DNA of 64,000 bases, from positions 687,501 through 751,500 of the forward strand of contig JACYXH010000113.1 in NCBI GenBank assembly GCA_026745465.1. Reading direction: 5' to 3'. The translations under genes and the position numbers were made by a program. Below, one piece after another: positions 35,401 through 53,600 of this stretch (position 1 is the stretch's first letter; each line of letters begins with the position of its first letter). This DNA is from Lota lota. Taxonomy: Eukaryota > Chordata > Actinopteri > Gadiformes > Lotidae. The notes under the pieces were generated by a model. The model did no database searches. It was not told where the DNA came from and saw only the letters and a list, made by a program, of their open reading frames with translations.

Positions 35401-38400
35401 ATGACAGAGTACTTTATTTATACTTGCGTAATAAGAGTCCCGCTAATATATAGTAGCACTGTTTATAATCATTGTATGGGTGTTTAAATGTGCTAAAATT
35501 TTTGTTTCTCTGTCCTACTGTATTTCAATCTGTCCCAAACGTACACTACATTTTCTTCATGGCCTAATATACATGCAGACGTTATGTTTTTCTTTTGATT
35601 GTTTCATTGTTAATACTCTCCTTCTCCATTGGCCAAAACGGTGCTCTACTCCACCAATGGGGGAGCGCAGTGTTTCGAGTTGCAGCGCGTGATTGGTCAC
35701 TGATGCCTCTCTCCGTCCACAGATTCTGACCGTGCCCAACGACCCGCACTCGTTTTTATCCTGCGGAGAGGACGGCACCATCCGCTGGTTTGACGTGCGC
35801 AGCAGAGCGTCCTGCAGTCTGAACAACTGTAAACAGGTGTGGCTGCATGGCCGCGCGTAGAGTCCACTGTAGACAGGTGTGGCTGCATGGCCGCGCGTAG
35901 AGTCCACTGTAGACAGGTGTGGCTGCATGGCCGGGCGTAGAGTCCACTGTAAACAGGTGTGGCTGCATGGCCGCGCGTAGAGTCCACTGTAGACAGGTGT
36001 GGCTGCATGGCCGGGCGTAGAGTCCACTGTAAACAGGTGTGGCTGCATGGCCGCGCGTAGAGTCCACTGTAGACAGGTGTGGCTGCATGGCCGCGCGTAG
36101 AGTCCACTGTAGACAGGTGTGGCTGCATGGCCGCGCGTAGAGTCCACTGTAAACAGGTGTGGCTGCATGGCCGCGCGTAGAGTCCACTGTAGACAGGTGT
36201 GGCTGCATGGCCGCGCGTAGAGTCCACTGTAAACAGGTGTGGCTGCATGGCCGGGCGTAGAGTCCACTGTAGACAGGTGTGGCTGCATGGCCGCGCGTAG
36301 AGTCCACTGTAGACAGGTGTGGCTGCATGGCCGCACGTAGAGTCCACTGTAGACAGGTGTGGCTGCATGGCCGCGCGTAGAGTCCACTGTAGACAGGTGT
36401 GGCTGCATGGCCGCGCGTAGAGTCCACTGTAGACAGGTGTGGCTGCATGGCCGGGCGTAGAGTCCACTGTAAACAGGTGTGGCTGCATGGCCGCGCGTAG
36501 AGTCCACTGTAGACAGGTGTGGCTGCATGGCCGCGCGTAGAGTCCACTGTAGACAGGTGTGGCTGCATGGCCGCGCGTAGAGTCCACTGTAGACAGGTGT
36601 GGCTGCATGGCCGCGCGTAGAGTCCACTGTAGACAGGTGTGGCTGCATGGCCGCGCGTAGAGTCCACTGTAAACAGGTGTGGCTGCATGGCCGCGCGTAG
36701 AGTCCACTGTAGACAGGTGTGGCTGCATGGCCGGGCGTAGAGTCCACTGTAGACAGGTGTGGCTGCATGGCCGCGCGTAGAGTCCACTGTAGACAGGTGT
36801 GGCTGCATGGCCGCACGTAGAATCCACTGTAAACAGGTGTGGCTGCATGGCCGCGCGTAGAGTCCACTGTAGACAGGTGTGGCTGCATGGCCGCGCGTAG
36901 AGTCCACTGTAAACAGCTGTGGCTGCATGGCCGCGCGTAGAGTCCACTGTAAACAGGTGTGGCTGCATGGCCGCGCGTAGAGTCCACTGTAAACAGGTGT
37001 GGCTGCATGGCCGCGCGTAGAGTCCACTGTAAACAGGTGTGGCTGCATGGCCGCGCGTAGAGTCCACTGTAAACAGGTGTGGCTGCATGGCCGCGCATAG
37101 AGTCCACTGTCACGGGGAAGGGAACTCGCTGAGGGCTGCAACGACTACTCCTTACAACCATGCGTCGAGCCGCAGAAATTGTACCGAATTTACGGAACGA
37201 TTCGTCGATCTACAGAATTGTTATCGAATTTATCGTTTTTTGTCAAGTGCAAATAACAAACACTTGCTGGTTCATGTTGCAGTCCGATCTAAGTGTTTGG
37301 TTCATGGATCACTATAAAACGAATAGTTTAGTTTTCTTTGGCTGCTTCTCAGATACAGGAAGCCCATTTAAAGAGCCAGTGAAGTTTTTGTTTGTAACGT
37401 GGTCATTTGTCTTATACGATCGTCAACATAGCCTATGCAATTTTATCACTGTTACTGAAATAAGTCGCCAATTTAGAGAAACACCACGTGAACGTTCCCC
37501 ACTGCTGAACGCAGGCGGCGGTCTTTTCGTGACGTCAGACCGCCTTCTCCGAGGCGGTCTGACGTCACGACCGAGGGGCCCCGGTCTGTGTGGACAGAGA
37601 GCCGAGGGGACGATGAAGTTGGGCTTTTCGGACACTTGTAGTGTAACGCCACGGTGTGTGTGGATGGTGAAGCTCCGTCTGAGCAGCGATGTATTTAATG
37701 TCCGCGTCCGAGTGAGGGTTAGGCTTCCCGGTCACCTGTAGTGTAACGCCACGGTGTGTGGCGCATTTCATATACAACATCGCTCATTATAACACTCAAC
37801 AGTCACACAACGACGGCACTAAATAAGTATCATAAAGTTAGCGTGGGTCGTAGCCATGGGGATAACACGCCCCCCTCTTTCCTAAAACTCTCAACTCAAA
37901 ACACATTCTTTTAAATCACATATAACTCGATTATATTATTTTTAAACACATTACATAAAAAAAGAGACAAAAAGACAAAATATAACACACTTCCTGTGTG
38001 GAGCACCAATCGACTGCGGATATTCAAAACGATCTGGTAGACGACCACAACGCTTTATGTTGACGACGATATCGTTGAGGATGATGATGATGCTGTGGTG
38101 GAGCAGTCGCTGACGACGTCTCTCCTCGCCGCGCTCCCAGGACGTGCTGATCGACTGTCGCCGGGCCGTGACCTCCATGGCCATCTCGCCCTCGGAGCCC
38201 TACTTCCTGTCGGCGGGCTGCTCCGACGGCTCCGTGAGGATCTACGACCGCCGCATGCTGGGGACCCTCGCTACAGGTACGGTAGTCCAGGGTAGGGGGT
38301 CTATCGCCACAGGTACAGTAGTCCAGGGTAGGGGGACCCTCGCTACAGGTACGGTAGTCTGGGGTAGTGGGACCCTCGCTACAGGTACGGTAGTCTGGGG

Positions 38401-50639: not shown

Positions 50640-53600
50640 TCAGGCCGGCAGACTTCGGGTGTCGGAATCGGTTTCGTCCCCAGGGACCGCCGGAGCCCCT
50701 GAGCGCCTCCTAGTGGCCAGCTTGGAAAGTGCAGCCAGGAGGAAGACGGCGGCGATGGCAGCAAAGTAGCAGCCGTATATTAGGAACTGTGGGCACAAGA
50801 ATGATTCACGGTTAAACATGCGTTGCTGTGAACATGCAATAGAACCTGCCAAAACTTTTACGACAATCGTCAGACAAAAGTAAATTAGCCTAAATAAAAT
50901 CACACAACCTGCAAGAGTAACATGTTATAAATGTCAACAAACCCACTAGGAGTAGCTAGGCTCGGCACCCAAGCGACGACTAAATCAGTTTACAGCCACG
51001 CGATCACATTTGATTAGCCGACAAGCATTGCCCGCTAAATCAGGAAACTCTACCCGTTGCGAGGTACCAACCTGGGGGAAGACGTCCAGGCCCAGGCCGA
51101 CCGTGTCCACCACCACCAGGGTGAGCGCCGACTGCAGGAGCAGGGCCACGAAGGTGTTGACGCCGAACACCAGGGCGTAGCGCTGCATACTGAGGCTAGC
51201 GGCGATCTGAAACCTGGGGGAGAGGGGGAGTCAGGGAGGCCAGCTTGAGCTAATGCTAATAGCAGGCGAATAAGGGGGCAGGACTCACGTGGCGTAGCTT
51301 GAGCTAATGCTAATGCTAATAGCAGGCGAATAAGGGGGCAGGTGACTCACGTGGCGATGGTGATGAGCAGCATGTAGGCGGCGCGGAACAGGATGTAGGC
51401 GCCGTAGCACACCCAGATGTTGCGCACCAGGTCCATGGTGAAGACGCAGGCCGCCATGACGGTGGAGAAGACGCAGAGGGCGAGCTCACCCCAGGTGGTC
51501 CAGCAGACGTGCACCGAGCCCACCGCGAACGCCGCCAGCGCACCTGGAGGGAGGGAGGGAGGGAGGGAGGGAGGGGGGGGGGGGGGGTGTGAGGGTTAGT
51601 TAACGATCGACCTTGACGATAATAATTAGTCACAACTCCATGCGTCTGTACACACGTGTCAGAATAATTATTAAATGCACGGTGTGGACATTTTCATACT
51701 GGTGGACGTTCTTCCTTTTGTCAACAGCGCCGCTGTTCCTGTTCGTCTCTAAAGCCGTTCAATTCCTTAAAGCAAATGTGTTATTTTAGCGACATAAAAG
51801 CCACAACTACGATATCATGTAGGATTGCTGCGTGGATGTCAGTGGCTTTATGGCAGAGCTTCAGACACACGGCTACCGCAGTGCGACATTGTGCAAAGTT
51901 CTGAGGAAATTGCACTAACGTTATTCAAGATGAAACACACGGAATCGCTATTCAGAATCAGAATCAGAAAAGCTTTATTGCCAAGTACGCTTTTTAAACA
52001 TACAAGGAATTTGTCTTGGTGATGTAGGTGCACGTCACGTTCTCTATTGCAGGTTAAACAGAACAAACAAAATAAGTATAAATATATGTATAAATATATA
52101 CACACAATTTAGATGTACAAGAGCAGATTTAAGTACAGTGGCATGTAGAGCCAGGGGTGGGGTGTGGAGAGAGTCAGGGTGGTTTCCGGGCCTTGTTAAT
52201 AAGGCTAGTGGCGGAGGGGAAAAAACTTGTTGGTGACGGCTCGCCAGTAAGGAACACGTATGATAAGTGGGATTCATGTTTGGGCCACTTTTGCTTGCAG
52301 TCAGCTGTTATCCATACCGCATTGTTAACCATAACACCACACGATTAAGTCAAGGTCAGGGCTCAGACTTAATCCAACAGATGGGAGACAATACATGGAC
52401 AAGCGAACGCCGCATGAAAATGTCTAGTCACAGCAGAGGTCAGGGGAGACGTAGAGTAGTGTGAAGGGAGCTAAGACAAGCTACAAAACTTCCTCCCACC
52501 TGGCCATACAGCCCCAGCCGTTTCTGTCTGTTGATGAGGAAACGCCATTAAACGCAAGCGACGGATCGAAAGGATCAGATACGAGCAGCAGAGCGGAAAC
52601 TGGACGAATGTAACACTCCAGCTGACGCCGTGCAGTGGATCGTTAAGACCGCCCGGCCTATGAAGGTCATGGCAGCGGTCGCTGAATCACCACATTCGCG
52701 ACGGAAGAAGGCGAGGAGGTTTTTAACCAACCCCTTCCTTTCTTTAACAACACTGAAAGACGGACAGTGGAAAGCACGTTTCAACGCGACCCCAAACGAT
52801 CACGTTATATCGCGGTGCACGCGTACTCTGCCTTTAGAAACACACGCGCGCGCCCCCCCCCCCCCCCCCTTTTACCCAGCAGGGTGGACAGCGTCTCCAC
52901 GTAGCCGTTGTAGAGCGCCAGGTCGTGGGGCGGCCGCACGCGCTCCCACAGCGCCTGCACGTAGTTGACCACCTGGAAGTAGCCGCAGGTGGACAGCGCC
53001 CACCAGGCCGACCAGGCCAGCAGGGGGCGCCGTGAGTAGCAGCGCAGGAAGTCCTCCCAGAGGACACACAGCACCTCGGTCAGGCCGCCGCCACCACCGC
53101 CGCGTGCCTATAAGATGGAGAAATAATAGTACAATGAATTTATGCAGAAATAACACGGCACTTGCTTTGTTTGTTGGGGGGGGGGGCTTAGCACAGGAGG
53201 TAGAGCGGAAGGTTGCTAGTTCGATTCCCCGGCTCCTCCTGAGCTGAGTGTCGAGGTGTTCCCTGAGCGAGACGCCTCACCCTAACTGCTCCCGAACGAG
53301 CTGGTGGCCGCCTCCAGACGGCTGACACCGCCGTCGGTGGGTGAATGTGAGTCTGCTAAATGCCCTGAATGTAAAATGTTTGTTCATCGGGTCGACGTTT
53401 GGGATCAAGGGGATGAATTTGACCGTGACACGTGTGTGTTTTTCTGTCTGTCTGTCTGTACACGCGTCCGTCAGACACAGACAATGTCAACAATTAACCT
53501 GGGCCAAATACTTAAACAGATCCGTCTTTCGGCGAAACATAACTTTGACGAAGGTGGCACCGTGGGTCAGTTTACATCATTTCGGTTGGATGTTGAAAAC

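Follow-up and report, generated by a model that had tools for sequence, protein, structure and literature searches.

Tandem arrays that begin on authentic exon ends were found in the fish Lota lota: the first repeat unit is the exon's own 3' end together with its 5' splice site (donor), and further copies of the unit fill part of the intron. The DNA analysed, hereafter the window, is a stretch of 64,000 nucleotides (C113:687501-751500 of the 575-Mb assembly) carrying on the plus strand a gene that we take to be dcaf6, as an earlier note on this DNA did, and on the minus strand slc19a2 and mpc2. That note had described this first-unit anatomy at exons 5, 6, 9 and 10 of dcaf6 and at exon 4 of slc19a2, and all five agree with its description at the level of single bases, the first unit taking in 6-21 exonic bases. 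Exon-end arrays are not confined to the window, and the same anatomy recurs in other genes with different units. We consider it probable that these arrays are minisatellites derived from tandem duplications that spanned an exon-intron junction by chance and were tolerated, in a genome prone to duplication.

The exon ends in question were placed as follows. The dcaf6 model was rebuilt from landmarks and then checked by reading frame. Exons 1-13 form a single open frame with exon ends at 35836 (exon 5), 38276 (exon 6), 42102 (exon 9) and 42501 (exon 10). The WD40 part of the protein was aligned to DCAF8, a relative (9u7t, E=2.1e-30), and the alignment covers the joins between exons 5 and 6 and between exons 6 and 7, with small gaps at both. 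An exon-like stretch at 43831-43872 was ruled out as a dcaf6 exon, its frame disagreeing with that of the adjacent exons; exon 11, which is in frame, lies at 43302-43475. From exon 10 through its array and the downstream sequence (42360-43480) one frame is free of stops for more than 1.1 kb, although it is the spliced frame, and not this one, that suits exon 12. For the minus-strand genes, the slc19a2 exon joined to the next one gives a Folate_carrier match (Pfam), and mpc2 exons 1 and 2 together give an MPC match of 25.6 bits, slightly below the Pfam cut-off of 27.

Array anatomy was established from Tandem Repeats Finder (TRF) calls, direct reading of the sequence and a count of the copies of exon end plus donor (Table 1); donors were scored with textbook frequencies. 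At the four dcaf6 donors array onset lies inside the exon, with 11, 17, 11 and 21 exonic bases in the first unit for exons 5, 6, 9 and 10, respectively. The arrays differ in how well their copies have kept the splice site and the frame. At exon 5, the 11 exonic bases of copy 1 depart at one position from the most frequent type of copy; 31 of the 32 copies have the donor GT, and the frame is open from the first donor only. At exon 9, again with one mismatch among the 11 exonic bases, copy 1 alone of five has GT, the other four having GG, and no later copy keeps the frame open. All four exon 6 copies retain GT, and all four donors are in phase with an open frame; use of the second, third or fourth would lengthen the WD40 protein by 12, 24 or 36 residues. 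At exon 10, where (ACTAC)n lies between copies and the exon end also terminates the array, GT is kept in seven of seven copies and all seven are open; phase varies, two of the later copies being in phase. Because later copies are open in exons 6 and 10, it is only in exons 5 and 9 that reading frame points to the first donor.

Units and sequences differ among the arrays of the window, as the earlier note had said, and from this difference we infer, as it did, separate origins. Two near misses had also been listed there. The dcaf6 one, at the exon called 14 in that note and 13 in the rebuilt model, does begin within a few bases of its donor at 45641, whereas the mpc2 duplication starts at intron base 4 and has no exon in its unit.

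Table 1. Exons, exon-end arrays, near misses and one further array in the window (positions are those of the window)
Feature	Positions	Strand	Description and basis
dcaf6 exon 5	35723..35836	+	donor AAACAG/GTGTGG; open frame, DCAF8 alignment across join
dcaf6 exon 5 array	35826..37110	+	40-bp unit, 32 copies; first unit = 11 bp of exon 5 + donor; TRF, copy count
dcaf6 exon 6	38141..38276	+	donor CTACAG/GTACGG; open frame, DCAF8 alignment
dcaf6 exon 6 array	38260..38405	+	36-bp unit, 4 copies; first unit = 17 bp of exon 6 + donor; TRF, copy count
dcaf6 exon 9	41992..42102	+	donor CTGCAG/GTACTC; open frame
dcaf6 exon 9 array	42092..42320	+	49/37-bp spacing, 5 copies; first unit = 11 bp of exon 9 + donor; TRF, copy count
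dcaf6 exon 10	42360..42501	+	donor GGGCTG/GTACCT; in-frame join to acceptor at 43302
dcaf6 exon 10 array	42481..43089	+	compound; 7 copies of exon end + donor, spacing 78-136 bp; sequence, TRF, copy count; left edge set by hand
dcaf6 exon 11	43302..43475	+	frame agrees with exons 10 and 12
slc19a2 exon (exon 4 of the earlier note)	51351..51543	-	donor CGCCAC/GTGAGTC, first intron base 51350; predicted exon
slc19a2 duplication	51233..51356	-	two copies at 62-bp spacing, each with 6 exonic bp + donor, GT in 2/2; far end approximate
Near miss, dcaf6	45647..45699	+	9/18-bp array beginning 5-7 bp beyond donor at 45641; TRF
Near miss, mpc2 intron 2	30526..30621	-	48-bp duplication; onset at intron base 4 (first intron base 30624); unit without exonic bases
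dcaf6 intron 7 array	40849..41267	+	68-bp unit, CAGGTGAG in 6 copies; stops 16 bp before exon 8 acceptor; away from exon ends

The window holds other repeats. The six units of the intron 7 array (40849-41267) each resemble an acceptor, a 25-nt pseudo-exon and a donor, CAGGTGAG. A G-rich run of 139 bases (39176-39314; 97% G by TRF) lies about 40 bp past the exon 7 donor, and a low-complexity repeat of about 6 kb (20519-26720), of the CCCTC/CCCTCACC type, includes a long C-rich stretch.

For recurrence elsewhere, the genome was searched for CAGGTRAG occurring three times at a spacing of 24-54 bp, and the first 10 arrays listed were read by eye with about 300 bp of 5' flank. Four of these 10 start on an exon end (L086, L091, L092 and L094), their units including 12-19 exonic bases. 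A Pfam search of the flanking exons gave a Peptidase_M1_N match for L086 and a TSP_1 match for L094, and no match for the exons of L091 and L092; L094 is presumably UNC5-like, and L092 we take to be WDR24-like. The other six are not at exon ends: two (L085, with a ZT_dimer match, and L093) lie deeper in the intron of a sense-strand exon, two (L088 and L089) adjoin apparent exons on the opposite strand, and for L087 and L090 no exon was seen in the stretch of about 300 bp. Along the 264-kb C113 stretch, 2 of 26 CAGGTRAG sites are predicted donors, which is a lower bound, predictions being incomplete (mpc2 exon 1, for example, is absent).

Further cases came from the kinesin loci and from C113 upstream of the window. 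One kinesin exon (L068) has junction-crossing repeats at both acceptor and donor. At C113:528385-528914 (window-relative -159115..-158586), in a presumably IPO5-like gene, an intron consists almost entirely of one 52-bp array, the unit of which includes the acceptor and 8 exonic bases. At about 611.1 kb of C113 (window-relative -76397), a TMEM131-like exon, with a TMEM131L Ig match below the Pfam cut-off, carries a 98-bp duplication including 42 exonic bases and the donor.

The earlier note had proposed that donors be compared with acceptors and with shuffled positions. This comparison was made on 174 exons outside the window, comprising 113 kinesin exons and 61 predicted exons from the 200 kb of C113 upstream of it (the contiguous stretch including the window has 55 kb of N). 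The kinesin set derives from 140 domain matches, of which 120 were used after leaving out three full-length single-exon matches and the 17 weakest; 100 of 105 sequence windows were taken, with 115 matches, 113 of them resolved at both ends and 75 with good coding support. Exon ends were set by our own predictor, and a boundary was scored as crossed when spanned by the first copy of an array with 5-45 exonic bases. TRF edges first listed near predicted exons, some of these weak, played no part in the counts. Crossed donors numbered 5 of 174 (4/113 kinesin, 1/61 C113) and crossed acceptors 4 of 174 (2/113 and 2/61; Fisher p=1.0); among the four kinesin donors, L039 (5 exonic bases) and L045 (a single copy 188 bp off) are borderline. 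Random intron points were crossed in 402/15779 and 361/15429 cases at the kinesin loci, and in five further samplings in 76/3000, 102/3000, 82/2000 (dcaf6), 116/3000 and 199/5021, that is 2.3-4.1% overall. Donors are thus crossed at the background rate (p=0.46; 95% interval 0.9-6.6%), and the specificity for donors proposed in the earlier note is not supported. A looser test, in which any copy counted, placed 100/680 and 97/680 random intron points inside repeats and therefore shows merely that introns abound in repeats. Applied to the 21 exons of the window, the automatic test picked out the donors of exons 5, 6 and 10 and no acceptors; it omits some true cases, exon 9 not being predicted and slc19a2 falling below the score threshold, and it also omitted an upstream TMEM131-like donor at -86310 with array onset 10 bp inside the exon.

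Splice motifs were then counted genome-wide, as matches to the triple pattern over single occurrences, relative to the reversed motif. These counts are of matches and not of arrays, one array giving many matches, and the single counts include array members. CAGGTRAG reached 4998/55290 (9.0%) against 746/28400 (2.6%) for its reversal, or 3.4-fold, and stood 3.3-fold and 2.4-fold above two additional controls of the same composition; AAGGTRAG reached 1954/42657 (4.6%) against 306/48426 (0.6%), or 7.2-fold. CAGTGRAG, a non-splice control in which GT is swapped, gave 1468/52963 (2.8%) against 1152/31059 (3.7%), or 0.75-fold. The acceptor motif TTYYTNCAGG gave 299/26352 (1.13%) against 61/17674 (0.35%), or 3.3-fold. 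Donor-like motifs and the acceptor motif are both over-represented in arrays. When arrays were counted by hand in the first 100 matches listed, there were 10 for CAGGTRAG, about 13 for CAGTGRAG and 17 for the acceptor motif; extrapolated from these, CAGGTRAG exceeds CAGTGRAG by a factor closer to 2.5 when arrays are compared. Exclusive nucleation at donors was discarded, since acceptors are crossed at a similar rate and the acceptor motif is enriched as well.

The positions of array edges were examined in 71 mapped introns, 34.5% of the length of which is tandem repeat; two of them (23 and 36 bp) result from exons split by the prediction and hold no arrays. By TRF edges, 11 arrays (7 kinesin, 4 C113 upstream) have their start within 15 bp of the donor on the intron side, where 15-bp bins between 30 and 105 bp hold about 1.6 each, and 6 arrays end within 15 bp of an acceptor versus about 2.4 per bin; kinesin flanks are about 230 bp, and distant bins are possibly under-counted. 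Near donors, starts are found mainly at intron offsets of 0-10 bp, with some others at 18-28 bp or in the exon; near acceptors, ends stop mainly 4-17 bp short, some lying in the exon. Array edges look as if they were bounded by minimal splice signals. CT, CTCCT and TG repeats at 34131-34847, 38608-38920, 41861-41987 and 45166-45466 reach to about 3-18 bases from dcaf6 acceptors. Short-intron geometry, with ancestral introns of about 80 bp, can explain some cases at most, since the median collapsed intron is 469 bp; dcaf6 intron 9 (51 bp) and the IPO5-like intron (58 bp) are short when collapsed. A permutation of the 45 complex arrays within the 71 introns, which leaves out the exon 10 array (microsatellite filter) and the slc19a2 duplication (no TRF call), gave 6 array edges near acceptors versus 6.3 expected, and 4 versus 4.4 outside the window. 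Strict crossing (-45..-5) of donors was 5 versus 3.6 expected (p=0.30), and 2 versus 2.6 outside the window.

Chance duplication followed by tolerance, which we see as the simplest reading, would operate as follows. The genome would yield tandem duplications at a high rate. A duplication across a donor would leave the upstream exon end and its donor unchanged, so that the mRNA can remain normal, and the surplus copies of exon end plus donor would sit in the intron and then expand; a duplication across an acceptor would be tolerated in mirror-image fashion. Junction duplications would be tolerated because one intact copy of exon plus site persists. The first donor would presumably be the one used, duplication would have come first and expansion afterwards, and weak selection, rather than a donor-seeking mechanism, would have allowed the arrays to persist. 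Directly observed are the anatomy, its recurrence, its presence at both junction types and, in the exons sampled, the similar crossing of donors, acceptors and random points. The frame that is open from the first donor only in the exon 5 and exon 9 arrays supports tolerance, and the enrichment of the acceptor motif (3.3-fold) beside that of CAGGTRAG (3.4-fold), the kinesin exon L068 and the 34.5% of intron length in repeats also speak for this account. On this account, dcaf6 is an extreme case of duplication and tolerance.

Several results weigh against this account. In the permutation, for which four widths were tried and p is uncorrected, 13 arrays start at -45..+25 of a donor versus 6.3 expected (p=0.005), and 9 versus 4.4 outside the window (p=0.017); such an excess of starts at donors only is not what a symmetric neutral process predicts. 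Strict crossing of acceptors was 1 versus 3.7 expected. The 174-exon sample is compatible with a donor rate of up to 6.6%, about 2.6 times background. The enrichment of AAGGTRAG is as high as 7.2-fold. Finally, 4 of 15 dcaf6 donors are crossed versus 82/2000 random dcaf6 intron points (4.1%; p=0.003), a post hoc value in which a hand count is set against an automatic null, the automatic test having three of the four. The earlier note's judgement that chance overlap is unlikely finds some backing in this last figure, but not in the crossing rate outside the window, which is at background. A donor preference of about two-fold is possible, and it may reflect the short sequence that a donor needs, versus the branch point and pyrimidine tract of an acceptor.

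The strongest competing explanation, which we regard as unlikely, is that duplication is directed to donors: replication slippage at CAGGT/AAGGT, or transcription or splicing at the 5' splice site, would start duplications, and donors would thereby seed minisatellites. The octamer enrichments over reversal and over same-composition controls, the 4 of 10 sampled CAGGTRAG arrays on exon ends, the two-fold excess of starts near donors with its peak in the first 15 intron bases, and the dcaf6 cluster all speak for it. Against it, the acceptor motif is enriched 3.3-fold, unselected exons are crossed at background with donors behaving like acceptors, and 6 of the 10 sampled arrays lie away from exon ends. 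Of the nucleation at donors put forward in the earlier note, recurrence in other genes, octamer enrichment and, in a small sample, the excess of starts remain, whereas donor specificity is not supported.

A pure motif effect, in which CAGGTG-like or AAGGTRAG-like DNA is prone to duplication anywhere and authentic donors are hit for carrying the motif, is improbable. The same 6 of 10 arrays away from exon ends and the 68-bp array in dcaf6 intron 7 fit it. However, two donor octamers and the acceptor decamer are enriched over their reversals and the swapped CAGTGRAG is not; splice identity, rather than a single motif, therefore seems relevant. In addition, the four dcaf6 donors belong to neither octamer.

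We hold it very improbable that the copies are functional decoys or backup donors, that is, repeated 5' splice sites kept for U1 recruitment or for isoforms (such as the 12-residue steps of exon 6). The intact GT of the exon 5, 6 and 10 arrays, the in-phase, open copies of exon 6 and the precedent of human IFI6 (PMC4526556) agree with such a role, but GT survives in only one of five exon 9 copies, the frame is closed past copy 1 in exons 5 and 9, and recent expansion alone would give intact copies. That assembly collapsed or invented the repeats is scarcely credible, for in the assembled sequence substitutions are scattered between copies (exons 5, 6 and 9) and similar anatomy is found on other contigs.

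A broader possibility, to which we give limited credence, is that splice junctions, donors above all, are hot spots of minisatellite birth in this fish lineage, a process linked to splice-site sequence or to splicing-coupled transcription seeding duplications in hundreds of genes and leaving ladders of spare donors or acceptors. If junction motifs are truly enriched in arrays genome-wide, this fish would provide a natural collection of genes, normal in other respects, with duplicated donors and acceptors, which could reveal which copy the spliceosome chooses, how exon ends withstand duplication and whether splice sites or their transcription seed minisatellites. If chance duplication and tolerance are all there is, the arrays still gauge the weak constraint that guards exon ends from duplication. 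The arrays also carry a warning for annotation in repeat-rich fish, where wrong donors may be chosen or arrays read through.

We take the IFI6 type of array to be one in which the first unit is an authentic exon end with its 5' splice site; this arrangement was found at dcaf6 exons 5, 6, 9 and 10 and slc19a2 exon 4, and by reading at L086, L091, L092 and L094. Human IFI6/G1P3 (6-16) is reported to have a minisatellite with multiple splice donors (Turri et al. 1995, as cited in PMC4526556), two downstream repeat units of which reportedly serve as splice donors (PMC4526556). The likeness lies in repeat units that bear potential splice donors, several of them in series; the Lota arrays differ in having another unit at each exon, in several genes, and in that their downstream donors are putative. 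In human genes within segmental duplications, exon-intron boundaries carry internal tandem repeats, which can alter splicing, and 27 intron modifications are described among recent paralogues (PMC2812944). Minisatellite units likewise sit at exon-intron boundaries in Lota, but in genes not chosen by segmental duplication and with motif counts at genome scale. Intron gain through tandem genomic duplication of AGGT-bearing exon segments (PMC3443670) also creates additional donor- and acceptor-like sites from duplicated AGGT sequence; the Lota duplications instead span an existing junction, and intron gain is no part of the finding. In C. elegans, regions of alternative splicing have an excess of one minisatellite close by (PMC4039745). 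Codfish genomes are exceptionally dense in short tandem repeats (PMC5894186, PMC6868369), but the passages concerned treat short repeats, with units of 1-10 bp in PMC5894186, rather than splice sites, the string 'splic' occurring 0 times in PMC5894186 and twice in PMC6868369, both times on gene annotation. In the titles and abstract openings searched, from a literature that mostly excludes subscription papers, donor-based arrays were nowhere described across the genome of a fish.

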